Assembly: GCF_000024845.1 (NCBI RefSeq)
Contig: NC_013501.1
Span: 2,026,874-2,090,873, forward strand
Origin: Rhodothermus marinus DSM 4252
GTDB taxonomy: Bacteria > Bacteroidota > Rhodothermia > Rhodothermales > Rhodothermaceae
Direction: 5' to 3'
Length of the DNA stretch: 64,000 bases
Shown here: positions 3,180-34,820 of the stretch, piece after piece
Layout of the letters: every line of letters starts with the position of its first letter
How positions within the stretch are numbered: the first letter of the stretch is position 1
Notes under the pieces: generated by a model
Seen by the model: only the letters and a program-made list of their open reading frames with translations
The model's database searches: none
What the model was told of the DNA's origin: nothing
Translations under genes and position numbers: made by a program

Positions 3180-4232
3180 TCAGAACGAAAGTTGAATGCC
3201 CAGACGATTTACGTTGTCGAAGGTGTCGAACGCCGTGTAGGCATAGTTAAACATGAAGCCCACCGAGCCGAAGCGCTGCTGGATCCCCACGCCCAGGCTG
3301 GCTCCTTCCACGTCGGACGGATAGATGTAACCGGCCCGGAGCGCCAGCGTGTTCATCAACACATATTCGGCGCCGATGTGCAGCCGTTCGTCGAAGTCAC
3401 GCGGTCGCTCGGCATCGATGGCCACCAGGAGCTTGTGCATGTTGGGATCCTGGTTGGTCAGATCGAGCAGGTTCATGGCCACCCCGATCCGGAAGGTCAG
3501 CGGGGGTTCGAAGTTCTCCTGCTCGTACTTCAACTCCCGCGAAAAATTGCGGGCGCTGGCGGCAAACGTCAGACTCCGGAACCCCGTGTGATAGATCACG
3601 CCGAAATCAAACGCGATCGTGCTTTTGTTGTAATCTTTGCTGATCAGGTCGCCGCCATCGCCGAAGGCGACCGGGAAGGTGCCCAGATCCTGGCGGACGT
3701 ATTTAACCTGTCCGCCCACGGCGAAGCGGTCGCTCAATGCCCGGGCGTATCCGAAGCCCACGGCCAGCGCGGTAGGACTATAGGTACCGATGTCCTCGTA
3801 ACCGCTCTCGTTGTCGGCCCGGATCGTGCCAAGGAATTCGCCATAGTCGACGGCTACCACCGACACGCCGAAGACCCCATAGATCCCACCGCTCGGACTG
3901 AAGGCCAGCGTTCCGCCGTTGTAGCGAATGTCGGCGATCCACTGGGCCTGCATCAGTGCCAGATGGAAGCGGTCGGTCATCTGGGCCATCGTAGCCGGAT
4001 TGTAGAGCAGGGCCAGCGACGTGTTCAGGGTCTGCGCCGTCGCCGCCGATCCCATGGCCGCCAGGCGGGGATCGAGCGACATGCTCAGAAACTTCAGCCC
4101 TGTCTGGGCGCGCTTTTCAAGCTTTACCTGCTGAAATCCGCTTTCTCCGATCTGCTGGGCATCGGCACGGGGCGCCAGCCAGAGCAACATCAGCAGCAGG
4201 CCCCATTGCCAGCGTGGTAGACGCATCTTCAT
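3180..4232 (-). CDS. PorV/PorQ-family outer-membrane beta-barrel protein (copy A)
   Basis: The 350-residue product starts with a basic n-region and hydrophobic core ending in ADAQ, a typical signal peptide. It then shows the family features: LDPRLAAMGSAATA near residue 55, a LLYNPATMA motif, alternating barrel-like strands and a C-terminal Phe (LGIQLSF). PorV in Porphyromonas is the outer-membrane shuttle of the type IX secretion system; homologues elsewhere are of uncertain role. I chose the ATG at 4232 since earlier ones at 4241 and 4265 add residues that do not fit a signal peptide, and none has a clear ribosome site. It follows the CTD-bearing protein gene, whose product may be its cargo. 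A close paralogue lies at 19573-20607. Confidence 0.8.
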   Translation of the reverse strand: MKMRLPRWQWGLLLMLLWLAPRADAQQIGESGFQQVKLEKRAQTGLKFLSMSLDPRLAAMGSAATAQTLNTSLALLYNPATMAQMTDRFHLALMQAQWIADIRYNGGTLAFSPSGGIYGVFGVSVVAVDYGEFLGTIRADNESGYEDIGTYSPTALAVGFGYARALSDRFAVGGQVKYVRQDLGTFPVAFGDGGDLISKDYNKSTIAFDFGVIYHTGFRSLTFAASARNFSRELKYEQENFEPPLTFRIGVAMNLLDLTNQDPNMHKLLVAIDAERPRDFDERLHIGAEYVLMNTLALRAGYIYPSDVEGASLGVGIQQRFGSVGFMFNYAYTAFDTFDNVNRLGIQLSF

Positions 4233-4283
4233 AGGAATCATCGGTTTGAATTCGTTCCAGAACATCCCTTGGCGAATCTGTAA

Positions 4284-4314
4284 GCGGGGAGGCGGGCGCG
4301 ATCCGCCTCCCCGC
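4284..4314 (-). other. GC-rich stem-loop between FnIII-CTD and PorV-like genes
   Basis: Perfect 12-bp arms (4284-4295 and 4303-4314) with a 7-nt loop. There is no T-tract on the minus-strand side, so it is not a standard terminator. An attenuating or mRNA-stabilising hairpin that sets the ratio of the two products is possible. I see no equivalent at the same junction in copy B. Confidence 0.6.
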
Positions 4315-4320
4315 CACGGT

Positions 4321-6591
4321 TCATCGAATGACGACGAACTTGCGGATCAACTGCTGTCCGGTCGTGTGGTCTTTGATCACGGCGATGTAAATACCGCTGG
4401 AGACCACCTGCCGGGCGTCCGTGGTCAGGTCCCAGTATTCGTCACCGCTGCCGTCGGTGTGCTCGATTCGTTTCACCAGTTCGCCCAGTTCCGTGTAGAT
4501 CTCAATCGTGCACTGACCGGGGATGTCCAGGAAGCCCAGCTTATCCTGCTGGTCCGGCCAGCGCAGGTTCTGGTCGGCCGCGATGATGTAGGGATTCGGG
4601 ACGACCCGGGCTTTGAAGATGGTCTCACCCGGCGGCCGCTTGAGGATGGCCGGGTCGTAGGTCTGGGCATAGTACCGACTGCTGCGCAGCGGTCGCCCAT
4701 CGGGCGTACCGTTGATCGCCAGCGGGTCGATCGGCGTGGGCTCGCCGACGGCCTGGAGGTAGTAGTAGTAGGCTACGCCACGCGACACGTCGGTATCTTC
4801 ATAGCGGGTCGCGTTGGGCGGGAGTTTGGCGATCAGCTTGTAAGCCGTCGTCGAATCCGGAGCAGGAATCCCGTCATAGCGGTTCTGCGCCCGGTAGAGC
4901 TCCCAGCCGCCCGGCGGCTCCTCGCCGGGATAGGGTTCCCATTCAATTGTGATCTTATCAACTCCGGAGGTTACCTCGAAGCGACGTGGCGGCATGGGCG
5001 GCCGGATGACATTGAAACCGTTGGCGTAGACGGCCCGGGCCCGTTCTATCATCTGGAAGAGCGAGTCGCGGGCGGTCATGACCCATTCGTTCTTGGTCAT
5101 GCCGATGCAGCCTTCCTCGCCTTCGTTGCAGCGCTGATTCGTTTCGGGATTCCACCAGAAGATGGCCTGATCGGCTGCATCGACGCCGTTGGCCAGCACC
5201 TGCCGTTTGTACCACTTACCCAGTTCCAGGCTGAGTTCATCGCTCAGACCGGCGACCCCCTCGACCAGCACCACCCGCACTTCCTGGCCGGGCGCCATAT
5301 CAAAGGGGCCGAAGCTGTAGGCATAGCTCCAGCTGTTATAGCCAATACGCGGATCGCTCTTCTGTGCGGCAAAGTGCTTGACGAAGTCGACCTGCACATT
5401 GGGATCCGGCGGTGGCCAGGCGCAGAAGGCCTGCGAGGGAATGGTGCGGAGGCCCGTCCAGGTGCAGCCCGTGGTGCTGTACTGCCGCACCGGTGCGCCC
5501 TGCTCGATCCACTGCCGCTCCAGCTGCATGGCCTGGACGTTGTTGTGGTTGTTGCTTCCGGTCAGGTCGCCATCGTCCGAGTCGAGGTAGGTCATCACCC
5601 GGGGCTGGGTCGGATCATCCGGAAGCACGGTACCGGGGTCGTGCGGCTGGCCGTCGGCATGGAGCACAAAGGTGCCCACCATCGCCGCACCGCCCAGTCG
5701 GCCTACGGTATCCACATCAAGCGTGTACCACCAGCCGACCGTGTTTTCCCACATGGGGTTGCCGATCGTGTTGAAGCGCGTCTGTTCGGGGATGTAGCCC
5801 AGCCAGGAGAAATGGCCCCGCCAGGTTTCATCCAGACCGTAGTCCTGGTAGCCGTCGCCGACGGCGTCCGTCATCACGTAGCCGCCCCAGGCTGTGGCAT
5901 TGGCACTACCGCCCCAGGAGCCTGCCGGCGCGTTGATCTTCGGACGACGAATGATCGTGATGTACACGTCTTCCAGCGACTGGTCTGGCAACTCGATCTC
6001 GTCGTCGCCATCTACGTTACCGGTGTTGATAAAAGAGTACTCCACGATGTGATAGTCGTCATGGAACTCATTGCTGAGCTGATAGGCTTTCTGGATCATT
6101 GTAATGCCGACCGACGTGTTCACCTCGTTATAGACCATGCGGTCGGCCTTCAGCTCAGGATCCACCTCGTCCAGCGGCGCCGGGCGGCGGAATGATTCGA
6201 GTCCGTCCACCAGCACCAGCGGAGCCTCGAAACGTCCGATCAGACTTATGTTGCGTTCAAAGAACTCACCAATGCCCTCGGTACGGGGACCAATGTGCGA
6301 AACCCGCACCGGAAAATGGGTCCCTTCTTCGCTGGTGAAGTTCTTGACGCTGATCCACAGCGCCTGGCCGTGCATGTAGGACACCTGCGGGCGGATGCCC
6401 GGCCACTGGAACATCACCTCGTCATAGGTTTCGGGCTGGGCACCCCCGCCCACATAGCGGTGCTGGAAGTCGCCTACCGACAGCCAGCGCATGTTCCACT
6501 GCGCTCGGCCGTCGCGGGCCAGCCCGGCGCCCAGCAGCAGCGCCAGGACCAGACCGGTCGTCTGTACCGTTAACCGACGAACCACTTTCAT
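4321..6591 (-). CDS. Exported protein with FnIII and FlgD/type-IX-like C-terminal domain (copy A)
   Basis: The 756-residue product has a signal peptide (start taken at MKVVRRL; the longer frame to 6615 adds eight residues). The middle is a large unrecognised region rich in aromatic residues and Gly. A fibronectin-type-III-like module lies near residues 550-640 (PRRFEVTSGVDKITIEWEPY). The last ~85 residues (VVPNPYI, IEIYTELGELV, DEYWDLTTDARQVVSSGIYI, ending FVVIR) match the FlgD Ig-like / T9SS type A sorting fold. Surface exposure or secretion is therefore inferred. It sits between a TonB receptor and a PorV-like barrel in one transcription unit. Its homologue is at 20648-22852. The ligand or enzymatic role is unknown. 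Confidence 0.75.
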   Translation of the reverse strand: MKVVRRLTVQTTGLVLALLLGAGLARDGRAQWNMRWLSVGDFQHRYVGGGAQPETYDEVMFQWPGIRPQVSYMHGQALWISVKNFTSEEGTHFPVRVSHIGPRTEGIGEFFERNISLIGRFEAPLVLVDGLESFRRPAPLDEVDPELKADRMVYNEVNTSVGITMIQKAYQLSNEFHDDYHIVEYSFINTGNVDGDDEIELPDQSLEDVYITIIRRPKINAPAGSWGGSANATAWGGYVMTDAVGDGYQDYGLDETWRGHFSWLGYIPEQTRFNTIGNPMWENTVGWWYTLDVDTVGRLGGAAMVGTFVLHADGQPHDPGTVLPDDPTQPRVMTYLDSDDGDLTGSNNHNNVQAMQLERQWIEQGAPVRQYSTTGCTWTGLRTIPSQAFCAWPPPDPNVQVDFVKHFAAQKSDPRIGYNSWSYAYSFGPFDMAPGQEVRVVLVEGVAGLSDELSLELGKWYKRQVLANGVDAADQAIFWWNPETNQRCNEGEEGCIGMTKNEWVMTARDSLFQMIERARAVYANGFNVIRPPMPPRRFEVTSGVDKITIEWEPYPGEEPPGGWELYRAQNRYDGIPAPDSTTAYKLIAKLPPNATRYEDTDVSRGVAYYYYLQAVGEPTPIDPLAINGTPDGRPLRSSRYYAQTYDPAILKRPPGETIFKARVVPNPYIIAADQNLRWPDQQDKLGFLDIPGQCTIEIYTELGELVKRIEHTDGSGDEYWDLTTDARQVVSSGIYIAVIKDHTTGQQLIRKFVVIR

Positions 6592-6653
6592 ATGCCAATC
6601 TCCCTGACTTGCCATGGTTGAAAATCTTCTGCAGTGCCTGGTTGTGACGTCTG

Positions 6654-9600
6654 TCAGAATGTGAGCCGCACGCCGAAGTAGACATCGCGTGGATTCAGGA
6701 AGGCCAGGTACGTCTCATCGGGGTTGTCGATGTAGGCCTTGTTCTTGAGCACGTAGTCCACGCGTTTCGGGTCGGCGGGCTGCCACTGGCCGTTCGTATA
6801 GGTCATATACTGGCCGGTTGCCTTATCCCAGTAGAGGACATCGGGTATCGGCTCCGTCACCTGGTTGATGTCTACCACCGCATAGATCGGGTCGTAGGGT
6901 ATGCCCGGCTTCCGGAAATCACCCGGCTTGTCGTTGCCCGGCACCCAGACGTAGCCCGGATCGAACTCCTCGCCGAAGATGTCGCCTGGCAGGTGCAACG
7001 AGCGGAAGTAGTTCAGCATGTCGTTGGGTCCCTCAAACGGCGACGCGTTGCTCCAGTACATGCGCTTCAAATTGAGCACGTTGGTTACGTCCACGAAGAA
7101 CTGGAGCCGTCCTGCCGACGTCTCGAAGTTTTTGCTGAGGCGAAGGTCCAGGTTGTAGTAGTCCTTCCAGCTTGTATTGAAGGCAATCTCCGGATCGTTG
7201 CCCGGGCCGAAGGTGAAAGATTGCCCGTTCCAGGTGCCTTTGGCGCCGGCGCGCCACTCGCCCAGCAGGTTGAGGCGCCAGTCGCCCAGCAGTAGCCCGT
7301 AATCTCTGGGTACGATGATTTCCAGGTTGAACCGGGCGAACGGCTCCGGTACCGGCGCCCAGGGATAGTGGTCCGTCGTGGTCGTCAGGTATTGCCGGAA
7401 TTCGGCCCGGTTTTCGTTGATCTGTCCGAAGCCGAAGTTGCCGAACTTCCGCGCCAGGTACGTGTAGTTCACGAAGCCGCGAATCCAGCGCCCCCGGTTC
7501 TTTTCGAGCGTCAGCTCGAAGCCACGCACGTCGCCATAATTGAGCGGCTCTACGCGGAAGTAATCCACGGCATCGTCCACACTGATGTATTCGACCTCAC
7601 GCGCCTGGTAATGCATGTCGCGGTAGAAGCCCGCCAGCCGCAGCAGGAACTGGTTACCGATGTTCTGTTCGAAGCCCAGCTCGTAGGCAATCGTGCGCGG
7701 CAGCGGCACGTTCGGGTTACCGATGCTGAAAATCGCTCCGTTCGAGATGTACTCGACACGGAACAGGTCCTGCGGCGTGAGCATCTGGCGGAAGTGACCG
7801 TAGTTGAAGTACAGCTTGCTGTTGTCGGTGATCGGGAACGAAACGCCCAGGCGCGGGCTCACCGTGAGCTGTTTCTTCACCGGCTTGCGCGAAAGGGCCT
7901 GGTCGATGCCCCGAATGCCCACGCTTGCCGAGAGCGCCCGGTCGAAAGCCGTATAGTCGTACCACTTACCGCTGGGGTTGAAGTAATCGAAGCGCACGCC
8001 CAGGTTGGCGATCATGCCCTTGAACTCCAGCTTAGCCTGCGCATAGTAGGCCGCCTGCACGGGCGTGCGGTCCCAGCGGAACTTCTCGTTTTCGTGGTGC
8101 GGGTTGGCCGGGTCGTAGACGCCGTGCCGGATGTGGTAGTCACTGAAGATGTATTCCAGCCCCGTCTTGACCTGCAGCACGCGGTTAACCTGACTGGTCA
8201 GGTCCACACGAGCGGCATAGCGTACGATGTTCGAACTGTCGCGCGCCGAACCGGCCTGCGACCCGAGCAACCCGAAGGGTGTCGGGGTTGGCGCGTTTTC
8301 ATAGGATTGCTTGTAGCCCATGGGCGCTTCCGACATGCCCAGCTCCCCTTCGGCACACTGGCCGTTCACCGGGTCGGTGTAGGTGCCATCCCGACGGATA
8401 CACACGACAATCTCGCTCGGCCCGGTGATGCCGCCCTTACGCGGACGCGGCATGAAGGTGAAGTAGTCCGACTCGATGCGCTGCAGTTGCACTTCGTAGA
8501 ACGTGGCCGGACTCAGCGCATGCGTCAGCTTGGCCCCGATCATCGACTGGGTGATGTTCGTGGGACTGAAGCCCCAGTCGCCAAACAGCGCCATGTTGAT
8601 GTTGAAACCAATGTTCATCTGGACCGGCAGGAGATCTTCCCGGTTGTCCCAGGGATACCGGGGCATCTCACCGGTCAGGATGGTACCGCGCCCGTCGCGA
8701 TGCGCTGCATGCCCCTTCTGCTTCCGGTAAAGCCCGTCGATGGTCAACTTCACGCCACTGGCCACGTCCGAGACCAGCTTCCCCTGGAAAATGCGATCCT
8801 GATAGGCCGGCCGCTGCTCCGGAAACATCAGCGCCGTCTGCACCTGACGATAGGACGCCGTAAAGCGCAGATTGCCCAGATAGCGGCTGACCAGCGGCAC
8901 CGGTCCGCCGATGGTGCCGTCCAGTTCATAATTCGGTTCGCGAATGGTGAAATCCTTCCGAACCAGCCACTTGTAGGCCGAATACAGCTGCTCGGGCGTC
9001 CAGGGCGTTCCCTGCGCCAGGTTATCCCAGCCCTGATGATCCGGGTACTGCTCTTGCATCCACCTCGGCCAGACACTCGTGCCACAATAGGCTACGCCGC
9101 GAGCGCACCCCTCCAGCGGCGTGGTATCAAGGAAGGGCTTGATATAATAGGCCTCCATGTCGTTGGGCAGGGGGCCGAAGTAGGGCCGTGACGGGGTGGA
9201 ATACCGCATCAGGATGTCGCCGAAGTAGCGCTCGGTCGACGGCTCTTTCGTCACCACGTTGATCAGACCGCTCCGCACGTTGCCATACTCCGCATTGAAG
9301 CCGCCGGTCTGAACCTGCACCGCCTCGATGGCCGTAAAGCTGACCCCCAGAATCGGCGTGTTGCCACGGGGGTCGGCCAGCGTCAGCCCGTCCACGGCAA
9401 AGGCCACCTGATCGCCGCCAGCGCCACGGATCGTCAGCCCCGGCTCAAACCCCGCCTGCAGGCTGATCACGTCGGCCACGCTGACCACCGGCAGGTTCTC
9501 CACCTGCTCGGCCCGGATGTTGGCGATCGAGGCCGACACGTCCGGCTTCACCACCGGCTCCTCGGCCACCACGACCACCTCCTCCAGACCGACCGCCTGC

Positions 9601-9917
9601 GGCTGCAACTGGAAGTTGAGTTCGGTCGTCAGCCCGATGTTGACCACCACGTTCTCGGCTACCACCGGAGCGTAACCGACGAACGAGGCCCGCACCCGGT
9701 ATTCGCCGGGCGGCACGTTCAGAATGACGTAGTAGCCCTCGACGTCGGTCGTGGCACCCATCGTGGTCCCTTCGATGACCACGTTCACACCGGGCAAGGG
9801 CTCACCCGTCTCCGCATCGGTCACCACGCCCGCAATCTTGCCTGTCTGGGCCCATGCAGTCGCAACACCGACTACAAGCAGGGCCACCCAGGTGCAGCAT
9901 ACCCGTACCAGTCTCAT
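6654..9917 (-). CDS. TonB-dependent receptor with carboxypeptidase-D-like N-terminal domain (copy A)
   Basis: The 1087-residue product has a signal peptide ending in AWAQ, a carboxypeptidase-regulatory-like domain (about 25-105; DAETGEPLPGVNVVIEGT), a plug domain (about 115-230; LTIRGAGGDQVAFAVDGLTL, GGFNAEYGNVRSGLINVVTK) and a long beta-barrel ending in Phe (YFGVRLTF). It should import a bulky substrate through the outer membrane using TonB energy. It is not a SusC type: the plug lacks the DIESITVLKDA signature and there is no SusD next to it. A good GGAGGA ribosome site lies 10 nt before the ATG. First gene of a three-gene unit with the FnIII-CTD and PorV-like genes. Confidence 0.9.
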   Translation of the reverse strand: MRLVRVCCTWVALLVVGVATAWAQTGKIAGVVTDAETGEPLPGVNVVIEGTTMGATTDVEGYYVILNVPPGEYRVRASFVGYAPVVAENVVVNIGLTTELNFQLQPQAVGLEEVVVVAEEPVVKPDVSASIANIRAEQVENLPVVSVADVISLQAGFEPGLTIRGAGGDQVAFAVDGLTLADPRGNTPILGVSFTAIEAVQVQTGGFNAEYGNVRSGLINVVTKEPSTERYFGDILMRYSTPSRPYFGPLPNDMEAYYIKPFLDTTPLEGCARGVAYCGTSVWPRWMQEQYPDHQGWDNLAQGTPWTPEQLYSAYKWLVRKDFTIREPNYELDGTIGGPVPLVSRYLGNLRFTASYRQVQTALMFPEQRPAYQDRIFQGKLVSDVASGVKLTIDGLYRKQKGHAAHRDGRGTILTGEMPRYPWDNREDLLPVQMNIGFNINMALFGDWGFSPTNITQSMIGAKLTHALSPATFYEVQLQRIESDYFTFMPRPRKGGITGPSEIVVCIRRDGTYTDPVNGQCAEGELGMSEAPMGYKQSYENAPTPTPFGLLGSQAGSARDSSNIVRYAARVDLTSQVNRVLQVKTGLEYIFSDYHIRHGVYDPANPHHENEKFRWDRTPVQAAYYAQAKLEFKGMIANLGVRFDYFNPSGKWYDYTAFDRALSASVGIRGIDQALSRKPVKKQLTVSPRLGVSFPITDNSKLYFNYGHFRQMLTPQDLFRVEYISNGAIFSIGNPNVPLPRTIAYELGFEQNIGNQFLLRLAGFYRDMHYQAREVEYISVDDAVDYFRVEPLNYGDVRGFELTLEKNRGRWIRGFVNYTYLARKFGNFGFGQINENRAEFRQYLTTTTDHYPWAPVPEPFARFNLEIIVPRDYGLLLGDWRLNLLGEWRAGAKGTWNGQSFTFGPGNDPEIAFNTSWKDYYNLDLRLSKNFETSAGRLQFFVDVTNVLNLKRMYWSNASPFEGPNDMLNYFRSLHLPGDIFGEEFDPGYVWVPGNDKPGDFRKPGIPYDPIYAVVDINQVTEPIPDVLYWDKATGQYMTYTNGQWQPADPKRVDYVLKNKAYIDNPDETYLAFLNPRDVYFGVRLTF

Positions 9918-10255: not shown

Positions 10256-12469
10256 TCAGCGCTGCCCTTCCTCCAGCACGTAGGTGCGGTTCACCTCCAG
10301 ATTGAAATGCAAGTCGCGCCGGCCGTCCGGTGTGGGCCAGCGGATTTCCAACGTGTCGATATGCATGGCGTCGCCCAGACCGATCCAGGGCATCAGCGGC
10401 GAGGCGCCGAAACTCCCGCCGGAAGACACCGTGGCGTAGTGCACGCGGCGGCGACCGTCAGACGTCCGGACAACCAGACGGATCCGGGCTCCAATGGCCG
10501 CACGGTTGGCCCGTCGACCTACCAGACGGAGTTGTATCCGGTTGCCGGTCGATTGCACGTTTTCAAACAGCGCGTTGGGAAACACGTCGCTTTCAAAGGC
10601 ACCGCCCAGCACGACGTACATATCCAGATCGCCATCTCGGTCGAAATCGGCCATCGCCACGCCGTGCCCTTTCTGAAGGTGTCCGGTGCCGGAGACGAGC
10701 GTTACGTCCTCGAACGTTTCGCCCCGTCCCATGAACAGGCGATTGGGCACCAGCGCCCGGAAGTCGGGCGTGCCCGTGCCCCAGTACATATCGGGCCAGC
10801 CGTCGCTGTTCAGGTCGCCGTAGTTGCCGCTCATGGTGAAGCAGGCCCGGTCCAGTCCGGCCTCCCGGGTCACGTCGGTGAAGGTGCCGTCGCCGTTGTT
10901 GCGGTAAAGCGCGGGTGGCTCGCTCCGGCGCCGGATGCCCAGCCATTCCAGAGCGTATTCTGCAGGCGTTTCGGCCAGATAACGCAGATCGAAGCTGGCC
11001 ACAAACAGGTCTTCCAGGCCATCCTGGTTGTAGTCGAAGAACCAGACGGGAAAACTGAACAGCGGCCCGGTAACACCGGCCTGCTCGGCCGCCTCTTCGA
11101 AGTGCCAGTTTCGGGGATCTGTCCCACCCCGGTTCACAAACAGATGATTGGGACCGCCCAGCACGGAAACGTACAGATCGGGCAGCCCATCGTTGTTCAC
11201 GTCGCCCCAGGCTGCGCCTTTGACCATGGCCTTCAGGTCCAGCCCGACGTCCGGAGCGACGTCGGTAAACGTCCCGTCGCCGTTGTTGACGTAGAGCGCG
11301 CAGGGAAACTCGACAAATTGGTCTTCGGGCAAGCCGCCCAGACCGACCGCCCAGGCCGAGACCCAGTTCGATTCACACCCGACGAACAGATCGATCCAGC
11401 CGTCCAGGTTAAAATCCGCAAAAGCGGCCGTCTGCGACGGACAGGCATAGCCCAGTCCGGCCTCGTAGGTTACGTCGGTAAAGGTGCCGTCTCCGTTGTT
11501 GCGGAGCAGCGAATTGGGCATGCGGCCGGCCGGTCCCAGCCAGGCTCCGCGGAGAATCAGCACGTCCACATCGCCGTCGTTGTCATAGTCGGCGTGCACC
11601 GTATTGAGCCCGCCGATAATCCCTTTCAGGCCCGCCGCCTCCGTATGATCCACGAAGCCGCCCTGTCCGTCCGCCAGGAAAAGGCGCACCTGGTCGTTCA
11701 GCCCGTAGGACGTGACCAGCAGATCGACCCAGCCGTCGCCGTTGAAATCCTCGGCCGAAACGCCTCCGGCCAGCCCTACCACGTCCACGCCGAGCGCCAT
11801 TGCCACGTTTCGAAAAGATGGCGCGACCGGTTGGGCCGGCGCCAGCCCATTGATGCGCCAGCGCGCGGGCACGCCGTCGGGGTACCGGCCCATGGCCATA
11901 TAGGCCAGGTTCAACAGCCAGCGCGACTGAAAGTCGAACGGCCGGCTTTCGAGCAGCCGCTCCCAGAGTGCGGCTGCCTGCTGCACGGCTTCCCGGCGCC
12001 GGTGGATGCCCCCGCCCTGAAGGGGCAGGATGCAGGCTTCCGGATGGGGCAACGCCAGACAGTTCTGCTGCTCGCCCAGTCGGAAATAGGCCGTGGCCAG
12101 CGCCTCCAGCAGCTGACGCGTCTCCGGCGCTCCCTCGTAGGTGCCAAAGCGGGCCAGTAGCGCCTGCAGTTCTCGAATAGCGGCTTCGGTCTGACCGGCC
12201 GCCAGCAACTCCCGGGCATAGTTGAATCGAAGAGAAAGCGAGCTGCTCCCCGTCTGCTCCAGCTGCCTGTGCCACCACTCGGCGCGCTGGCTGTTCAGCA
12301 GATAATAGGCCATGGGATCGGCCAGCGCCCGCCGGTAGATGGCTGCCAGCGTGTCGACCATCCGGGCCGTGCCGCTCAGGGTGGCGGGTGGTTCAGGCGC
12401 CCGACAGGCGGCCAGCCCTGCGACGAAGGCCATCCCCAGAATTTTCCAGCGCAACGCTTCGCGCTTCAT
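10256..12469 (-). CDS. Lipoprotein with helical N-terminal region, FG-GAP propeller and ASPIC/UnbV domain
   Basis: The 737-residue product has a lipobox Leu-Ala-Ala-Cys (Cys22). Residues ~30-200 are helical and TPR-like (RFNYARELLAAGQTEAAIRE). Seven Ca-binding loops follow (DFNGDGWVD, DYDNDGDVD, DFNLDGWID, DVNNDGLPD, DYNQDGLED, DLNSDGWPD, DFDRDGDLD), as expected for a seven-bladed propeller, and an ASPIC/UnbV domain at the C-terminus (SSGGSFGASPLMPWIGLG). It thus fuses the two modules, TPR and UnbV, that are separate genes nearby. Last gene of a five-gene operon, joined to the preceding TPR gene by an ATGA overlap. Confidence 0.85.
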   Translation of the reverse strand: MKREALRWKILGMAFVAGLAACRAPEPPATLSGTARMVDTLAAIYRRALADPMAYYLLNSQRAEWWHRQLEQTGSSSLSLRFNYARELLAAGQTEAAIRELQALLARFGTYEGAPETRQLLEALATAYFRLGEQQNCLALPHPEACILPLQGGGIHRRREAVQQAAALWERLLESRPFDFQSRWLLNLAYMAMGRYPDGVPARWRINGLAPAQPVAPSFRNVAMALGVDVVGLAGGVSAEDFNGDGWVDLLVTSYGLNDQVRLFLADGQGGFVDHTEAAGLKGIIGGLNTVHADYDNDGDVDVLILRGAWLGPAGRMPNSLLRNNGDGTFTDVTYEAGLGYACPSQTAAFADFNLDGWIDLFVGCESNWVSAWAVGLGGLPEDQFVEFPCALYVNNGDGTFTDVAPDVGLDLKAMVKGAAWGDVNNDGLPDLYVSVLGGPNHLFVNRGGTDPRNWHFEEAAEQAGVTGPLFSFPVWFFDYNQDGLEDLFVASFDLRYLAETPAEYALEWLGIRRRSEPPALYRNNGDGTFTDVTREAGLDRACFTMSGNYGDLNSDGWPDMYWGTGTPDFRALVPNRLFMGRGETFEDVTLVSGTGHLQKGHGVAMADFDRDGDLDMYVVLGGAFESDVFPNALFENVQSTGNRIQLRLVGRRANRAAIGARIRLVVRTSDGRRRVHYATVSSGGSFGASPLMPWIGLGDAMHIDTLEIRWPTPDGRRDLHFNLEVNRTYVLEEGQR

Positions 12470-13695: not shown

Positions 13696-13700
13696 GGTGC

Positions 13701-15434
<1,734 letters not shown>

Positions 15435-15436
15435 GG

Positions 15437-18157: not shown

Positions 18158-18171
18158 GCGTTATTACACGA

Positions 18172-19452
18172 TCAGGAGCCACGTCGTCGTTCCAGTTCAG
18201 CTAAGTAACGCCGTAAGGTATCATCATGCGGGCGGTAGCGCAAGGCCTGCAGCCAGGCCCGCCGAGCTGCTTCGTACTGTTTCTGCTCGGCCAGCACCAC
18301 CCCCAGGTTTAGCCACACATCGGCCAGGGTCGAGTCCCGTTGCAATAGCTGATAGTAGCGCTGCACAGCCTCAAGCGTATCGCCCAGAAGCAAGGCCAGG
18401 TTAGCCCGATCGTTCTGCAGGGCCAGGTTATCGGGTGCCCAAAAAATTGCCACATCCAGTGCTTTGCGGGCCTCTTCGTATTGTCCTGCCTGAATGAATA
18501 GGGCCGCCAGTTCTTGCCAGGGACGAGCACGCTGACTCTGGTAGGCATTCAGGCGAGCCTGAGCGATCTTTCCGGAAAGCTGCTGAATCTGCCGCGCTCG
18601 TTCCAAAAAGAACTGCCCCGCTTCTCGCTGTCCCAGTTGCATCAAGGCCCGCCCCAGGTTATAGTTAGCCCCTCGGTGCGTAGGCTGCCGCTCCACCACC
18701 AGCTGCAGAAAGTGTACGGCATCCTCTAGATACCCATTCTGCATCAAGAGACGGCCGAACGTGTAGATATTTTCCAGGTCACCCGGAGCCTTTTGCAGGG
18801 CTTTTTCAGCCAGTTCTAGGGCCTTTTGCAGATGCCCTTCTTGGGCCTCCAGTTCAGCCAGCCAGCGATAGGTTTCACTGGCCAATGAGTCGAGTGCCAG
18901 CGACTTCATATAAAATCGACGCGCCGCCTCCAAGCTATCGAGCAGGAAAAAGGCCCGGCCTGCCTGGCGATAAATGACTGGAAGCGCGGCCTGGTCCGCT
19001 TCTCGGTAAAACTGCTGAACGTCCGGTGGAGAGGACTGGATCAGCGCCAGTTCTTCAAGATAGAGGTCAAGCGCCTTTTTGTAAGCACCCTGCAGAAAAG
19101 CGGAGTGCCCCTGTTGAAAATAGATGCCTCTCAGATAAGGATCCAACTGTCGTGCTTTCTGAAAGGCTGCATTTGCCAGCTCAAAAGCATTGGCATCCAG
19201 GTAAATACGCCCTTTGAGTAGATAGGCCTCAGCCACTTCTACTGCAGCCAGCAAGCTATCTACGCGCTGCATGGCCAGGCTGTAATTGCCGGCCGCATAG
19301 GCCTGCCAGGCCCGTTCCAGTTGCGCGCGCTGTGCGGGCGCAAGCAGTTGCTGGGAAGAAGGACGATAAGCTTCAGAGTCGACATGCTGGCATCCTGCCA
19401 GCATAAAAAGGGCCAGCACCCCTACCAACCAAGCACGAATCGCACGCCTCAT
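18172..19452 (-). CDS. TPR-repeat lipoprotein, first gene of the cytochrome/UnbV operon
   Basis: The 426-residue product is taken from the ATG at 19450-19452, which gives a signal peptide with lipobox Leu-Ala-Gly-Cys (Cys21). A longer frame to 19557 would start inside the upstream terminator hairpin and is rejected. TPR units run to the C-terminus (THRGANYNLGRALMQLGQRE; STLADVWLNLGVVLAEQKQY). Base composition and codon use are visibly less GC-rich than in the operon genes that follow, resembling the block 20.65-27 kb. Together with the downstream cytochrome, UnbV, TPR and UnbV genes it forms a five-gene unit after a strong terminator. Confidence 0.85.
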   Translation of the reverse strand: MRRAIRAWLVGVLALFMLAGCQHVDSEAYRPSSQQLLAPAQRAQLERAWQAYAAGNYSLAMQRVDSLLAAVEVAEAYLLKGRIYLDANAFELANAAFQKARQLDPYLRGIYFQQGHSAFLQGAYKKALDLYLEELALIQSSPPDVQQFYREADQAALPVIYRQAGRAFFLLDSLEAARRFYMKSLALDSLASETYRWLAELEAQEGHLQKALELAEKALQKAPGDLENIYTFGRLLMQNGYLEDAVHFLQLVVERQPTHRGANYNLGRALMQLGQREAGQFFLERARQIQQLSGKIAQARLNAYQSQRARPWQELAALFIQAGQYEEARKALDVAIFWAPDNLALQNDRANLALLLGDTLEAVQRYYQLLQRDSTLADVWLNLGVVLAEQKQYEAARRAWLQALRYRPHDDTLRRYLAELERRRGS

Positions 19453-19511
19453 AGCTAACTTATGGGTTACACTGAAAACAGCCCGAGCACAAACTAAACA
19501 GCCAAACAAAG

Positions 19512-19549
19512 AAAGCAACCCCGGGATCCACTCTTCCCGGGGTTGCTTT
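19512..19549 (-). terminator. Strong terminator after copy B PorV-like gene
   Basis: A perfect 15-bp inverted repeat (19512-19526 with 19535-19549), 8-nt loop. On the minus strand the stem ends in TTT and continues TTTCTTTG-like. It lies 24 bp past the stop of the PorV-like gene and 60 bp before the start of the TPR gene, so that operon probably needs its own promoter or readthrough. Confidence 0.88.
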
Positions 19550-19572
19550 GTGCTCATGGTTGGCTTTATGGC

Positions 19573-20607
19573 TTAAAAAGCCAGCTGAAGCCCAATGCGA
19601 TGTACATTATCAAAGATGCCAAATGAAGTGTAGGCATAATCTACACCGATCTTAAAGCTGCGGGAGCCTACCCGCAAGCCGCCTCCCAGATTAATTCCTT
19701 GTTCATCGGTAGGATTCACATAGCCTGCCCGAAGGTAGAGCAGCTGCATAAAGGAGTACTCCAGCCCTACCTTTATCTGCTCTGGGTAGTCGCGCGGGCG
19801 CACCGCCTCCACGTTGAGCCAGAGGGCATGGTCGTTACTGGCCGGCGCCATCAGATCCATCAGGTTATAGGTAACGCCTATCTGAAAAGAAAGGGGAAGT
19901 TCAAAGCTCTCTTCCACATAGGTCAGCTCCCGCGAGAAATTGCGGACGCTCATGGCAAAGGTCAGGCTCTGGAGTGCCGTCCGGTAGAGCACGCCGAAGT
20001 CCACGGCGATGGTCGACTTGGCGTAGCTTTCCGTGCGGCCGTTCAGCCCGACCTGCGCCGAGCCCAGATCCTGGCGGGCAAGGCGCGCGTGACCGCCCAC
20101 CGCGAAGCGGTCGGTGATGGCCCGCGCATAGCCAATGCCGATGGCCAGCGCACTGGGACTGTAGGTCCCCTGCTCTTCGTAGCCCTGTTCGTTGTTGGCA
20201 AAGATGGTCTTGATGACCTCGGGATAGCTGACGGCCACCACGCTCAAGCCGATTACTCCATACTGGCCATCGGCCGGCCGATAGGCCAGGCTGGCGTAGC
20301 TGTAGTCCGTGTTGTTAATCCACTGCGTCTGTCCGAACGCAACGTGGAAGGCTCGGTCGAAGTAGGCCATACCGGCCGGGTTGTAAAAGAGCGAAAGTGA
20401 AGCGTTGTCGTCGCGGGCCGTGAGCGCATCGCCCATGGCGGCCGCCCGCGGATCGAGCGACACACTGAGGAACTTGAAGCCGGTCTGGGCCAGCTTTTTG
20501 GTCTCGATCTCCGTTACGGGACCGATATCCTGGGCGTAGAGCCGTCCGACCAGGAGCAAGCATCCGGCCAGCAGTACGCCCATCTTTGTATATAGCAGTC
20601 GTTTCAT
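19573..20607 (-). CDS. PorV/PorQ-family outer-membrane beta-barrel protein (copy B)
   Basis: The 344-residue product has a signal peptide (ending LYAQ), the LDPRAAAMGDALTA and LFYNPAGMAYF family motifs and a terminal Phe (IGLQLAF). It is collinear with the protein at 3180-4232; both share TYSPTALAVGFGYARA/TYSPSALAIGIGYARA-type segments. The 5' two-thirds of the gene is GC-rich like copy A, while the 3' third is less so, a possible mosaic. It is the last gene of the copy B receptor unit and is closed by the strong terminator. Confidence 0.82.
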   Translation of the reverse strand: MKRLLYTKMGVLLAGCLLLVGRLYAQDIGPVTEIETKKLAQTGFKFLSVSLDPRAAAMGDALTARDDNASLSLFYNPAGMAYFDRAFHVAFGQTQWINNTDYSYASLAYRPADGQYGVIGLSVVAVSYPEVIKTIFANNEQGYEEQGTYSPSALAIGIGYARAITDRFAVGGHARLARQDLGSAQVGLNGRTESYAKSTIAVDFGVLYRTALQSLTFAMSVRNFSRELTYVEESFELPLSFQIGVTYNLMDLMAPASNDHALWLNVEAVRPRDYPEQIKVGLEYSFMQLLYLRAGYVNPTDEQGINLGGGLRVGSRSFKIGVDYAYTSFGIFDNVHRIGLQLAF

Positions 20608-20647
20608 CGTCTCTCTCCGGGTTGTTACCTGTTCGCGAATTTCCTGG

Positions 20648-22852
20648 TCAGCGAATGATCACGATCGTCCGAGTAGTCTGCTTGCCCGTTTCCTTGTCCG
20701 TGATCACAGCGTAGTAGATCCCACTGGCCACCACCTGACGGGACGAAGTGGTCAGATTCCAGAATTCGTCACCACTTCCGTCCGTGTGCTCAATCACCGT
20801 CACAAGTTCACCCAGCTCTGTGTAAATCCGAATCGTGGCCTGTGGTGGCAGCCCGTAGAAGGCAATTTTATCCTGAACATCCGGGAAGCGCACGCCCAGA
20901 TCGGCCTCCAACACATAGGGGTTGGGGACAACCCGTACGTCATCCAACGAAGCTCCGGGCGGCCGCCGGAGTACGGCCGGCAGATAGGTCTGTGTCCAGT
21001 ACCGATTGCTCTTCAAGCCATTGCTGCCGACCGCCTGAATGTAGTAGAAGTAGTTGACTCCACGGGTCACTTCGGTATCAATATAGGAACGGGCATTCCC
21101 TGGCAGTTCGGCAATCTTCTTATAGACAGTGGAGCTATCTGGCAGGGGGATGCCAAAGTAATAGTTCTGCGCCCGCCAGATTTCCCACCCTGCCGGATCC
21201 GGCTCACCTGCATAGGTTTCCCACTCCAGGGTAATCTGATCCGTGCCGGAGCTTACCACAAATCGCCGCGGCGGCTTCGGAGCCTGCGGGACCTGCATCC
21301 CATTATTCCAGACCTCGAGGATCTGGTCAAAGCGTTTGAAGAGCGAGTCGCGGGCGGTCATGACCCAGTCGTTCTTGGTCCTGCCAATACAGCCCGGATC
21401 GCCCTGATTGCAGGAGGTGTTGGTTGTGGGATTCCAGTAGAATAGCAGGTTATTCGCCACTTCTTGTCCCTGCAGACGAACCTGCTGCTTATACCAGCGC
21501 CCCAGGGCATAGGCCAGCTTATCATTCAGCCCGGCAATCGCTTCAGCAACCACAATCCGCACATCCTCACCTGGCCCTAGCGTATAGGGTCCAAAGCTCT
21601 GCACGTATCCATACCCTCCTTCACTGGGTTGCGGTGGGGCTGTCTGCCGCGCAAAATCACCATCTGGCTGAATACGCCAGGCATGCGGCGGCTTCTCATC
21701 GCTATAGCGAGCCGACCCTGTCCCATTCTTGAACCCATCTTCTAGCCAGTCCCGCTCGAACTGCATCTGATTAATATCATTGTGATCATTCCGGCTGGTC
21801 AGGTCGGCATCGTCTGAGTCCAGGATGTCCATCATGCTCGGCTGCGCTCTATCGTGCGATTCGTCACTTGCCGAGCGGTCGGCATGAACCGTCAGCGTGC
21901 CGAACATAGCGGCTGCTCCTAGGCGTCCTGTCGTATCGCCGCCGATGTGCGCGATCCAGGGCTGGAGCTCAAACCACATGGGATTACCAATGGTATTAAA
22001 GTTGGTCTGATCCGGCACATGCCCCAGCCAGGAGAACTGCGCGGCATGATCTTGCCAGAAGTCGTAGCCTTGCGCAAACTGCTCGCTAAACTGCTCACCT
22101 GGCATATCAGCCCAGTCCGGCACCAGGGCGTCATTCATGGTGTACTTCCCCCACGCAGCACCTCCCGCTGAGTTATCCCAGGCCCCAGCCGGCGCATTGG
22201 CTTTGTTGCGGTAGAAGAAGGTGAAATAAACGTCCTCCAGCGTCTGATTAGGCAGTTCTATGTCCTCATCTTCATCCACATTGCCTGTATTCGTGAACAC
22301 ATACTCAATAATGTGATAATCCTGATGCTGCTCATTGCTAAACTGATAAACCCGCCGACGCACTTCTATTCCCATTGCCGTATGGGCTATGTTCTCCACC
22401 ATCGCATCGGCAGGAATATCCGGGTTAATTTCATCCGGAACAGCAGGCTTGTCAAAAGAGGTTAGCCCGTCGACGATAATCTCTGGCGCATCAAACTTAT
22501 ATACCAGCTTGATCACATCCTGAAAATATTCCCCTAACCCATTAAACCGAGGGCCAATATGCTCAATGCGCACCGGGAAGGTCTGGCCATCTGGAGACTG
22601 CCAGTTTTTTGCACTGATCCACAGGCCCCGCCAGTGTCCCCAGTATGCTCCAATCATATGGCCAGGCCATATATAGGTCCCCTCTCCTGTCATCGCTTCT
22701 GGTTCAGCGCCGCCGCCCAGATAAGGCGATTGTAACCGTCCTATAGCCAGCCATCGCGTGCTCCACTGAGCCTTGGCAGGCGCGCTCATCAGTAACATTA
22801 GCAGGAGGCTAATGCCAACGCTCCACCTGCTGACCGCTTTTTGCTTATACAT
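20648..22852 (-). CDS. Exported protein with FnIII and FlgD/type-IX-like C-terminal domain (copy B)
   Basis: The 734-residue product begins with a signal peptide (start MYKQKAV; an ATG four codons upstream at 22864 is the alternative). It aligns throughout with the 4321-6591 protein: WSTRWLAIGRLQ near the N-terminus, NTGNVDEDEDIELPNQTLED, the FnIII-like stretch FVVSSGTDQITLEWETY, and a C-terminal domain containing VVPNPYV, IRIYTELGELV, DEFWNLTTSSRQVVASGIYY and ending TIVIIR. The FlgD/T9SS-like C-terminus predicts transport to or across the outer membrane. Codon use is much less GC-rich than in copy A. Confidence 0.76.
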   Translation of the reverse strand: MYKQKAVSRWSVGISLLLMLLMSAPAKAQWSTRWLAIGRLQSPYLGGGAEPEAMTGEGTYIWPGHMIGAYWGHWRGLWISAKNWQSPDGQTFPVRIEHIGPRFNGLGEYFQDVIKLVYKFDAPEIIVDGLTSFDKPAVPDEINPDIPADAMVENIAHTAMGIEVRRRVYQFSNEQHQDYHIIEYVFTNTGNVDEDEDIELPNQTLEDVYFTFFYRNKANAPAGAWDNSAGGAAWGKYTMNDALVPDWADMPGEQFSEQFAQGYDFWQDHAAQFSWLGHVPDQTNFNTIGNPMWFELQPWIAHIGGDTTGRLGAAAMFGTLTVHADRSASDESHDRAQPSMMDILDSDDADLTSRNDHNDINQMQFERDWLEDGFKNGTGSARYSDEKPPHAWRIQPDGDFARQTAPPQPSEGGYGYVQSFGPYTLGPGEDVRIVVAEAIAGLNDKLAYALGRWYKQQVRLQGQEVANNLLFYWNPTTNTSCNQGDPGCIGRTKNDWVMTARDSLFKRFDQILEVWNNGMQVPQAPKPPRRFVVSSGTDQITLEWETYAGEPDPAGWEIWRAQNYYFGIPLPDSSTVYKKIAELPGNARSYIDTEVTRGVNYFYYIQAVGSNGLKSNRYWTQTYLPAVLRRPPGASLDDVRVVPNPYVLEADLGVRFPDVQDKIAFYGLPPQATIRIYTELGELVTVIEHTDGSGDEFWNLTTSSRQVVASGIYYAVITDKETGKQTTRTIVIIR

Positions 22853-22890
22853 GAAGGTACCCATATGCCTATGATCGTTTTTATTTTCAA

Positions 22891-25800
22891 TTAGAAGGAA
22901 ATTCGCAGCCCAAAGTATACACGGCGCGGATTGAAGAAGGTCAGATAATCCGCATTAGGCATGTCAATATAGGCCTTATTATCCAACACCTTCTTCACGA
23001 AGTCTGGGTCCGCTTCGACAAACTCACTTCCCGTGTAGCTGTAGTAGGTGCCATCCTGGTAGTATAGCGGGCGTGTGGGCTCATCCCCAACCGGTTGGCA
23101 CCCGGCAGGCGGACAGACTTCAATGGGCACAAATTCAACCCCAGGCTTCCGATAATCTCCCGGCTGATCGTTGCCAGGTATAAACTGATACGGAGGATTC
23201 TCCAGCCCTTCAAAGGTGTTAGCCGGAAGATGCAGGGACTTCATGTAATCCAGCAGATCATCTGCCCCGGTAAAGCCACTCATCCGATCCATGTATCGGA
23301 GATTAAGCACATTGGAGACATCCATGAAAAACTGCACTTCTCCGAACTTCATGTTAAAGGTCTTACTCAGACGGAGATCAAGATTGTAGTAGTCTTTCCA
23401 CTGCACATTCTGTTCGATACCTCGGATCGGACTCCCCCCGGCAACCAGCTGTTGTCCCGTCCAGGTAAGCACCTGCCCCGCACGCCAGGTCCCCAGCAGG
23501 CTCAGGCGCCACCCGGCCAGTGGCCGCATTCCGTTGTAGTTAGGACCATAGTCTTCGGGGGTGACCAGATCAATATTAACCCGTGCATACGGCTCAGGTA
23601 CAGGTTTGCTCTGATAATGGTCGGTGCTGGTCAACAGATAGTTCTGCTGTGCCACAAGGTTTTCGTAATTGTACTCAAAACCAAAATTCCCCCCTTTCCA
23701 GGCCATATAGGTGTAGTTAATAAAGCCCTGAATCCACCGCCCGCGATCTTTCGCCAGCGAGAGCTCAAACCCCCGCACATCTCCGTAATTCCAAGGGCGC
23801 GCTACCCAATAGTTTACTTCTCCATCAATGCTCTGGAAGTTGATGAAGCGCACCTGGTTGGATACGTCCCGGTAGTAACCGGCTAGGCGAAGCAGAAACA
23901 TGTCGAACAAGTTCTGCTCAAAGCCCAGCTCGTAGGCCACCGTTTTTTGCAGGGGTAGATTCGGGTTACCAATGCGCGCCACCGCTCCCGTATTAATCCG
24001 CTCTATCTCAAAGAGCGGTACCGGGTCGGGCATCTGCCGGAAATGCCCATAGTTGAAGTACAACTTACTATTGGCCGACACCGGGAAGGAGATGCCCAGC
24101 CGCGGGCTTAGCGTAAGCTGCTTGTCTACCGGCTCTTTAGACAGCACCTCATCGAGCTTATCGACTCCAAATACTGCCGTAAAGGCACGATCATAGGGCT
24201 CATACACATACCACTTGCCGCTTGGATTGAAGTAATCCAGCCGCACCCCCAGATTGGCGATCAACCCCTTAAATTCCAGCTTGCTCTGCAGGAAGGCCGC
24301 CCCCTGCTGCGGCTTACGATGCCAGCGATACGTGGGGTTGGCATGGTGTACAAAGAAGGGATCATACTCCCCGTAGTTCATCTGGTAGTCGCTCAGATGA
24401 AACTCGAAGCCTCCCTTTATTTGCAGATAGCGGTTCACCTGACTGGTCAACGAAGCATTGATCACCCACCGTGACACAGAAGAGGTGTCAAAAGCAGCCC
24501 CTCCGTGCCCGCCGATCCGAAGCCCGTTAGCACTCAGACCATCCTGCGCCCCCTTAGACTCATAGCCAAAGGGCGCCTCATTCAGACGAATGACGTTGGG
24601 GGCCTGGCAGGCCGGATCATCAATGGGAAGAATGGCAGGCTCCGGCGTCACACATACCACAGGATCCGGGTTGCGAGGCGGAATATGTCCGGTCAGATAA
24701 TCCGTCTGCACCCGCTGCAGCTGCACTTCATAAAAGGTGTTCGGCGTCAGCGCATGCGTAAACTTGGCGCCATAGAGCGCATAGTCAATATCCATTGGAT
24801 TAATGACCCAGTCGCCGTAGAGTGCGGCACGCGCTACGTGGCCTTCCACCCCATCATCGCCCAGAATTCTGTTCTCCAAATCATAGCGCCAATCCCAGGG
24901 ATAGGCTGGGGGATCCCCACTCAGCATGGTACTCGTTGCCCCCTGGTCAATTGCGATTGGCCGCACCAGCCCCTTCCGCTTGGACCAGAGTCCCACCAGC
25001 TCTAGCTTGGCACCAGCCGCAATATCAGAAACTAGCTTGGCCTGGGTGGTGTAGTCCCGATAAGTGCGGCGACGCTGGGGGATGATGTAAGCCGACTGCG
25101 TGCGGCGATGTGAAACCAGAAAGCGCAAATTCCCCAGTGAAGCCCCAATGGCCGGCACTGGCCCCGTAATTGTAGCGTCAATCTGATACTCTGGATCATC
25201 AATGCCGGTATTCTTCCGCGTCATCCACTCATAAGCCTTCTGCAACTGCGCTGCAGTCACATCATTAGAAGGATCGCTATCATTATTGGCTGGATAATCA
25301 TTGGCCGCCTCCTCCCATCCTTCAAATTTCGGATACTGGCGCTCCGTCCAATCGTCCCAGGCCGCTTCCGTGCCAATCATAGCTACTTCGGGATCAAAGT
25401 ACGGCCGCATCCAGAAGAAATCCCTGTCATTGGCATCGCCATTAAACGTCTTGGGTTGCGCCGGCGCATAGCGCAAAATGGCATCCACCGTATAGCGATT
25501 CGTCCGCGGTTCCTTCATCACTACGTTGATCAACCCTGACCGCACGTTGCCGTACTCGGCCGTAAAGCCACCCGTCTGCGCCTGCACCTCTTCAACAGCC
25601 GTGAAGCTCACACCGGTGAAAGGCGCGTTCGTACGCGGATCAGCCAGATTCATTCCATCAAGCAGAAAAGCCACCTGATTTCCTCCAAAACCACGCACGA
25701 CCAACCCCGGCTCAAAGCCTGGCTGCAAGCCAATCACCTGCACTACATCGGTAGCTACCGGGAGCGCTTCAATGACTGCCGCATCGATATTAGCAATACT

Positions 25801-26187
25801 GGCTGAAATATCCGGTTGCACGATCGGGCGCTCCGCCTGCACCACCACTTCCTCCAGCCCGATAGCCGTCGGACGCAACGCGAAGTTCACCTCTGTCGTC
25901 AGGCCAATATCTACCTGCACGTTCTCTACAACCTGGGGCACATAGCCCACAAAAGAGGCGCGAAGTGTGTAGGTGCCCGGACGGACGTTGATGATCGTAT
26001 AGTACCCGTCAATGTCCGTCGTAGCCCCAACCGTAGTTCCTTCAATCACGACATTCACCCCGGGCAATGGCTCCCCTGTCTCTGCATCCACCACCCGACC
26101 GGCAATCTTACCGGTCTGAGCCCATGCCCCGGTTGTCCCAAGAGCAGCCAGTAGCAGCATGCTCAGTATCCGTAGCGTGCGCTTCAT
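22891..26187 (-). CDS. TonB-dependent receptor with carboxypeptidase-D-like N-terminal domain (copy B)
   Basis: The 1098-residue product has a signal peptide ending AWAQ, the same CarboxypepD-like domain (DAETGEPLPGVNVVIEGT), a plug (LVVRGFGGNQVAFLLDGMNL, GGFTAEYGNVRSGLINVVMK) and a barrel ending YFGLRISF. It is a full-length paralogue of the 6654-9917 receptor. The start at 26187 gives a normal signal peptide; the frame is open to an ATG at 26244, which would add 19 polar residues. A consensus-like promoter lies upstream. The shared N-terminal and plug regions with more divergent barrels fit import of related but different ligands (inference). Confidence 0.9.
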   Translation of the reverse strand: MKRTLRILSMLLLAALGTTGAWAQTGKIAGRVVDAETGEPLPGVNVVIEGTTVGATTDIDGYYTIINVRPGTYTLRASFVGYVPQVVENVQVDIGLTTEVNFALRPTAIGLEEVVVQAERPIVQPDISASIANIDAAVIEALPVATDVVQVIGLQPGFEPGLVVRGFGGNQVAFLLDGMNLADPRTNAPFTGVSFTAVEEVQAQTGGFTAEYGNVRSGLINVVMKEPRTNRYTVDAILRYAPAQPKTFNGDANDRDFFWMRPYFDPEVAMIGTEAAWDDWTERQYPKFEGWEEAANDYPANNDSDPSNDVTAAQLQKAYEWMTRKNTGIDDPEYQIDATITGPVPAIGASLGNLRFLVSHRRTQSAYIIPQRRRTYRDYTTQAKLVSDIAAGAKLELVGLWSKRKGLVRPIAIDQGATSTMLSGDPPAYPWDWRYDLENRILGDDGVEGHVARAALYGDWVINPMDIDYALYGAKFTHALTPNTFYEVQLQRVQTDYLTGHIPPRNPDPVVCVTPEPAILPIDDPACQAPNVIRLNEAPFGYESKGAQDGLSANGLRIGGHGGAAFDTSSVSRWVINASLTSQVNRYLQIKGGFEFHLSDYQMNYGEYDPFFVHHANPTYRWHRKPQQGAAFLQSKLEFKGLIANLGVRLDYFNPSGKWYVYEPYDRAFTAVFGVDKLDEVLSKEPVDKQLTLSPRLGISFPVSANSKLYFNYGHFRQMPDPVPLFEIERINTGAVARIGNPNLPLQKTVAYELGFEQNLFDMFLLRLAGYYRDVSNQVRFINFQSIDGEVNYWVARPWNYGDVRGFELSLAKDRGRWIQGFINYTYMAWKGGNFGFEYNYENLVAQQNYLLTSTDHYQSKPVPEPYARVNIDLVTPEDYGPNYNGMRPLAGWRLSLLGTWRAGQVLTWTGQQLVAGGSPIRGIEQNVQWKDYYNLDLRLSKTFNMKFGEVQFFMDVSNVLNLRYMDRMSGFTGADDLLDYMKSLHLPANTFEGLENPPYQFIPGNDQPGDYRKPGVEFVPIEVCPPAGCQPVGDEPTRPLYYQDGTYYSYTGSEFVEADPDFVKKVLDNKAYIDMPNADYLTFFNPRRVYFGLRISF

Positions 26188-29668: not shown

Positions 29669-29673
29669 GGCGT

Positions 29674-33036: not shown

Positions 33037-33062
33037 GCCTGAATCCCGAACACATCTGCCTC

Positions 33063-33110: not shown

Positions 33111-33135
33111 CGTTGTCGCGCCTCCTACCGGACCA

Positions 33136-34764: not shown

Positions 34765-34820
34765 GGTCAACGTTCTGTTTGAATGCGGATGAAACTGGTG
34801 CGTCATTCCTTTCAAGACCG

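Follow-up and report, generated by a model that had tools for sequence, protein, structure and literature searches.

The export channel of the type IX secretion system (T9SS) is SprA, and PorV-type barrels collect and hold its cargo, with PorV acting as the shuttle for type A cargo (PMC10994853), all of which has been described as using a single PorV (PMC12618676). Cleaved CTDs have a poorly conserved translocon-facing surface (PMC10994853), and PorZ and PorU keep their CTDs uncleaved (PMC11285876). In the type B class, a CTD protein is accompanied by an adjacent cognate PorP/SprF-like barrel that anchors and secretes it (PMC9143113, PMC12618676). An alginate utilisation locus of Rhodothermus marinus (Alg-PUL) has been published with the gene order tonB, hypA (with a T9SS sorting domain), hypB (PorV/PorQ family), hypC and alginate lyases; it was presented as a gene list in which hypA and hypB were given no role, and according to its authors strain DSM 4252 has the same locus (PMC9530828).

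We analyzed a 64,000-nucleotide stretch of the R. marinus DSM 4252 genome (hereafter the window), which contains two units of three genes, all on the minus strand and each composed of a TonB-dependent receptor, a middle protein with a CTD, and a PorV/PorQ-family barrel. Unit 1 consists of the receptor at 6654..9917 (1087 aa; CarboxypepD_reg, Plug and barrel, with Plug at 37.3 bits and CarboxypepD_reg at 77-81 bits), the middle protein P0002 at 4321..6591 (beta-sandwich, FnIII and PorZ-like CTD by homology with its counterpart P0005, preceded by a signal peptide I) and the barrel at 3180..4232. Unit 2 consists of the receptor at 22891..26187 (Plug 33.4 bits, CarboxypepD_reg_2 87.2 bits), the middle protein P0005 at 20648..22852 (residues below are counted from 22864) and the barrel at 19573..20607. 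For four of these genes, the starts at 4232, 6591, 22852 and 26187, downstream options already chosen in an earlier sequence-only reading of this DNA, are favored by signal peptides. The two units are collinear and paralogous throughout, with BLASTP identities of 51% for the receptors (1117 columns), 50% for the middle proteins (744 columns) and 53% for the barrels (350 columns). Each is closed by a strong terminator 3' of its barrel gene, a 14-pair stem with a T run at 3145-3115 after unit 1 and a 15-pair stem at 19549-19512 after unit 2, both on the minus strand. The sequence-only reading had recognized the six genes, their collinearity, their terminators and the two membrane protein families, all of which we confirm. 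It had also called the units tandem copies; they are collinear copies, but they are not adjacent, being separated by 9.7 kb and five genes.

The duplication extends beyond the three genes. Unit 1 is followed on the same strand by an FG-GAP/UnbV_ASPIC lipoprotein gene (1365..3089, with a lipobox) and a TPR lipoprotein gene (154..1368), which are paralogues (54% and 43% identity, respectively) of minus-strand genes lying between the units, at 13701..15434 and 12466..13920, the latter with its true start downstream of the GTG shown. Because paralogous FG-GAP/UnbV and TPR lipoproteins come after each unit, the duplication comprises at least five genes. The remaining genes between the units, also on the minus strand, encode a TPR, FG-GAP and UnbV_ASPIC lipoprotein (10256..12469), a cytochrome c554-like multihaem protein with TPR repeats (15437..18157; PF13435, 30.6 bits) and, directly after unit 2, a TPR lipoprotein (18172..19557) that is 35% identical to P0013 and whose true start is probably inside the frame, past the terminator. 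The unit also has a cytochrome c554-like gene with TPR repeats as its neighbor in G036, in G037 and in one Marinimicrobia locus (L097).

Directly upstream of unit 2, the window holds a SusC/SusD pair (34821-37997 and 33136-34815) followed by two 1,100-aa FG-GAP/UnbV proteins that are 51% identical (the whole region spanning 26372-37997), with a strong terminator at 33111-33070. In this region, FG-GAP/UnbV proteins thus accompany both kinds of receptor. We recognized no polysaccharide enzymes around the window units, where FG-GAP/UnbV, TPR and cytochrome c554 genes and the operon of SusC/SusD and two FG-GAP proteins are found instead. A sugar ligand for these two units is thus unsupported by their setting, as no carbohydrate enzymes lie beside either.

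The two barrels clearly belong to the PorV/PorQ family (NF033709, 196.4 bits in unit 1 and 201.8 bits in unit 2, cut-off 90), but fall well below the cut-off of the T9SS PorV equivalog (NF033710, 66.5 and 79.7 bits, cut-off 250). The genome encodes a true PorV, whose gene comes after porU at C1:1086819, and a true PorQ, both outside the window, which rules out either window barrel as the PorV of the secretion system. A match to PorP/SprF was likewise far below threshold (TIGR03519, 19.8 bits against 90.55). The predicted structure of the unit 2 barrel (pLDDT 89.8) shows the FadL fold, its N-terminal helices occupying the place of the hatch, and its best solved match is PorV (Z 33.1), followed by TodX/FadL (Z about 28).

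The middle protein P0005 was modeled with a pLDDT of 88.6 and is predicted to have three parts, for which we computed fold matches with VIA-align. Residues 33-525 resemble the N-terminal super-beta-sandwich of GH94 phosphorylases and dextran dextrinase (Z 16.8-18.5, rmsd 3.2-4.1) over about 250-275 residues at 6-11% identity, with the catalytic domain of those enzymes left unaligned, and this predicted likeness is by itself no proof of sugar binding. Residues 526-636 form an FnIII domain in the model, and residues 637-738 form a CTD whose closest solved match is PorZ (5m11, residues 687-776; Z 11.6, rmsd 2.3, 88 residues aligned, 26% identity). The FnIII domain and CTD read earlier from sequence are thus borne out by the predicted fold. 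The PorZ family model itself reaches 42.2 bits against a cut-off of 260 (NF052228), matching the last 100 residues of the middle protein only. Against the type A CTD model (TIGR04183, cut-off 23), P0002 and P0005 score 15.5 and 21.5 bits and fall below the cut-off, while their homologue in the alginate locus scores 29.4 bits and exceeds it.

We considered that the units might be disguised SusC/SusD pairs, and this is ruled out by the family cut-offs, the fold and the missing lipobox. The window receptors match SusC/RagA (TIGR04056) at 82.9 and 81.9 bits through the N-terminal domain only, against a cut-off of 368.25, and receptors of triads in general score 50-86 bits. The window middle proteins match no SusD family, and the middle protein has no lipobox in 112 of 119 triads.

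A search of both replicons of the genome (C1, 3,261,604 bp, and C2, 125,133 bp), with the needed stretches read, located seven triads, each with its genes in the order TonB receptor, CTD protein and PorV-family barrel, one of them on the smaller replicon. The sequence-only reading had counted two copies of the module; both are real, but they belong to a set of seven, and we could discard the idea that they are a local curiosity. The receptor of the triad at C1:2777585 was missed by the Plug model and detected with our own receptor profile. The triad on C2 (L032, L208, L209) has an FG-GAP CTD protein and an N-acetylmuramoyl-L-alanine amidase as neighbors, and putative CRISPR-cas genes lie on either side.

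Four of the seven triads sit in polysaccharide loci, for alginate, pectin, mannan and starch, and none of these has a SusD; all six SusD matches in the genome lie away from the triads, one being the window gene at 33136-34815. The triad at C1:1349-1355 kb lies within the published alginate utilisation locus (PMC9530828), as hypB (1,056 nt) and hypC (1,398 nt) have identical lengths in both, and its next genes are of the PL6 (Chondroitinase B) and Hepar_II_III/Alginate_lyase types. Downstream of the pectin triad at 2777 kb lie genes for a pair of T9SS cargo proteins, a Pel9A-type pectate lyase, a GH28, an SDR and a sodium symporter. The mannan triad at 391-398 kb precedes an ABC sugar importer and a pair of GH130 mannoside phosphorylases, and the starch triad at 300-307 kb precedes a cargo protein of starch-binding CBM20/CBM53 type and two alpha-amylases. 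Behind the alginate triad (hypC; L035 9849-11246) and the pectin triad (L031 81-1577) there is one more barrel, of about 465-498 aa and distantly FadL/PorV-like. For twelve triads taken from five other genomes, the 12 kb that follow contained at least four amylases, at least two PL6 and at least two GH130 proteins, plus GH88, GH3 and sugar importers. This comparison used the best 25 families per set, with counts that are lower bounds on the triad and control sides, and twelve control stretches gave no such carbohydrate families among the matches listed.

The middle proteins of the window are full-length homologues of those in the alginate and pectin loci (HHalign 100%, E 2.2e-44, 603 columns), while those in the mannan and starch loci have the CTD alone in common with them. 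Because the homology is full-length in one group and confined to the CTD in the other, the receptor, CTD and barrel are constant, with the N-terminal part exchanged.

Within the order, 51 of 114 genomes encode a homologue of the middle protein, and within the phylum 78 of 394 do. Among the loci that we read within the order, 18 of 20 hold the complete triad, one has a shortened barrel frame and one lacks the receptor and barrel; outside the order, all 20 loci read hold the triad, in one case ordered barrel, receptor, CTD protein. A scan of 84,980 species produced 80 loci from seven phylum-level groups (Rhodothermota, Balneolota, Ignavibacteria, Calditrichota, KSB1, Latescibacterota and Marinimicrobia), which share some genomes with the previous loci, so that the sets are not additive. 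The three families are neighbors well beyond R. marinus, as the sequence-only reading had required of a genuine module: of the 73 loci with enough flank on both sides, 71 have the receptor before and the barrel after the middle gene, all three on one strand. The same arrangement was found in 20 of 20 loci in which a CTD of the same class is attached to an unrelated or distant N-terminal part.

Additional genes accompany the unit in some lineages. Outside Rhodothermales, the genes behind it often encode an IPT/TIG beta-propeller lipoprotein and then another propeller whose CTD is of the free-cargo (YPNP) type (L073, L081, L089, L116, L105 and L142). In Ignavibacteria and Calditrichota, a lipoprotein of about 300 aa that reaches no Pfam cut-off interrupts the triad, ahead of either the barrel or the CTD protein (L114 11073-11990, L158 10625-11533, L119 7916-8893, L132 7947-8909 and L145 626-1567).

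To score all CTDs in the fetched loci, we used a profile built from the seven triad CTDs. The scores fall into two groups separated by an empty interval at 40-60 bits. In the high-scoring group (n=133), Val precedes PNP in 127 CTDs and a barrel gene lies directly downstream of 126, whereas in the low-scoring group (n=124) most have Tyr or Phe before PNP and only 2 have a barrel downstream. The triad CTDs are a class of their own ('VPNP'). Since the fetched loci had been chosen for one middle-protein family, the linkage test was redone in ten complete genomes, where 86 of 97 CTDs of the class (scoring at least 45 bits) directly precede a PorV-family barrel, against 0.4 expected, and where 86 of 145 PorV-family barrels are paired with such a CTD. 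Five of the exceptions, among those read, belong to a second layout conserved in five genomes (L192-L196), in which a CTD protein of the same class is followed by one or more other genes, then by a TonB receptor and directly by a PorV-family barrel. The ten complete genomes have 11-18 PorV-family barrels each, and about 40% of the barrels are without a triad-type CTD partner.

The three genes also share their history. Within genomes, between-triad distances correlate across the three genes at 0.83-0.89, compared with 0.11-0.14 when reshuffled inside genomes (0 of 2000). The barrel tree groups by middle-protein class and locus type across genomes rather than by species, although its deep branches are unsure. 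Within the middle protein, the CTD is the best conserved part, with 26.5% of columns conserved at 90% or more versus 12.6% in the N-terminal domain. Collinearity and co-evolution are evidence of inheritance as a unit, not proof of contact.

R. marinus encodes SprA (2630.7 bits) as well as PorU, PorV and PorQ, each above its cut-off. SprA was found in 49 of 50 triad genomes, including 26 of 26 near-complete ones. In a sample of the phylum it was found in 117 of 148 genomes and in all 30 that hold the middle-protein family. This agrees with a dependence of the triad on the T9SS, but as SprA is common in the phylum anyway we regard it as weak evidence.

Compared with the systems described previously, the triads are like SusC/SusD in that a TonB receptor gene adjoins the gene for a putative surface partner, in having many paralogues per genome, and in occupying polysaccharide utilisation loci, the last of which holds for the four sister triads and not for the two window copies. 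They differ in lacking SusD, in receptors that score far below the SusC cut-off, and in a partner of beta-sandwich, FnIII and CTD build that is mostly without a lipobox and has its own barrel. The earlier proposal of a dedicated unit parallel to SusC/SusD with a different partner is therefore supported, given four sister triads in polysaccharide loci without SusD. With PorZ-PorQ and PorU-PorV, the triads share the combination of a CTD protein and a FadL-type barrel of the PorV/PorQ family, the best fold matches and, by analogy, possibly the retention of the CTD. Unlike those pairs, the triads have a different N-terminal part and an added TonB receptor, are not part of the secretion machine, and do not come near the equivalog cut-offs of PorZ, PorQ and PorV. 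As in type B CTD/PorP pairs, the gene for the CTD protein adjoins that of a dedicated FadL-family barrel, but the triad CTD is PorZ/type A-like, the barrel is of the PorV/PorQ family and a TonB receptor gene is constantly present. The closest parallel in gene content is Alg-PUL (PMC9530828), which has the same order of tonB, hypA and hypB and whose hypA is a full-length homologue of the window middle proteins; the window copies differ in lacking alginate enzymes. Its publication qualifies the earlier statement that no system of this composition has been described, which holds for the mechanism but not for the gene order. In the open-access literature we found no description of the three-gene system, and the alginate locus paper alone has the composition.

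We propose that the unit is a SusCD-like TonB importer whose surface partner is exported by the T9SS and held by a dedicated PorV/PorQ-like barrel, to which we assign a probability of roughly 0.68. Sec would take the middle protein across the inner membrane, and its CTD would take it through SprA across the outer one. By analogy with PorZ, the CTD would remain uncut and bound to the PorV/PorQ-family barrel encoded beside it. The barrel would be the membrane anchor of the middle protein and perhaps its own shuttle, a role that PorQ has for PorZ and that PorP-like barrels have for type B CTDs. The N-terminal part would project over the neighboring TonB receptor, bind a large ligand, which in the sister loci with clear annotation would be an oligo- or polysaccharide, and pass it to the receptor. 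Permanent anchoring by the CTD, docking on the receptor and ligand transfer are the inferred steps of this proposal. The sequence-only reading had suggested that the barrel might export its CTD protein, which is probably wrong because cargo is exported through SprA, with PorV-type barrels collecting and holding it (PMC10994853); the barrel more likely holds the protein than exports it.

In one alternative, the barrel is only a cargo-specific shuttle from SprA to PorU, the CTD is cut, the protein is released or lipid-anchored, and the TonB receptor is merely co-regulated. PorV does shuttle type A cargo (PMC10994853), and the genome has both PorU and a true PorV. However, the triad CTD is closest to that of PorZ, which is not cleaved, is unlike the free-cargo CTDs of the same genomes, and is the best conserved part of its protein, whereas cleaved CTDs show little conservation on the surface that faces the translocon (PMC10994853). 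We consider this alternative unlikely.

The barrel itself could also be read in other ways. FadL-like proteins import hydrophobic compounds, and the barrel keeps the FadL fold with its N-terminal helices in the hatch position, so it could be a channel for a hydrophobic ligand in an uptake operon without a joint complex, the CTD protein being an ordinary secreted adhesin. Such a role seems improbable to us, as PorV is the better structural match and the barrel goes with one class of CTD and not with any set of metabolic genes. Taken together, a PorZ-like CTD and a PorQ/PorV-like barrel could instead indicate paralogues of the T9SS attachment complex that build or modify the surface, for instance by delivering LPS to other cargo, with no import involved. 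Against this, each unit is tied to its own TonB receptor, and four sister units are found in loci for polysaccharide catabolism, in some cases together with sugar transporters of the inner membrane; we think this reading similarly improbable.

Returning to a TonB importer with a barrel-held surface partner, a broader form of the proposal, in which we place only slightly more belief than doubt, is that the triads represent a second TonB import architecture found across the FCB group. Its capture subunit would be a T9SS cargo protein with an uncleaved CTD locked in a private PorV/PorQ-family barrel, and its capture domain would be swapped by substrate on a fixed chassis of receptor, CTD and barrel. 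PorV-family barrels are known as parts of secretion, and in ten genomes most of them instead have one CTD protein and one TonB receptor of their own as partners; if the second-architecture reading is true, the expansion of the family to 11-18 barrels per genome would reflect import, not secretion. R. marinus, whose alginate locus has already been studied, is a direct test organism. If true, the proposal would link type IX secretion to nutrient import, explain how the alginate, pectin, mannan and starch loci of R. marinus work without SusD, and provide a function for many 'hypothetical' proteins in at least seven phylum-level groups.
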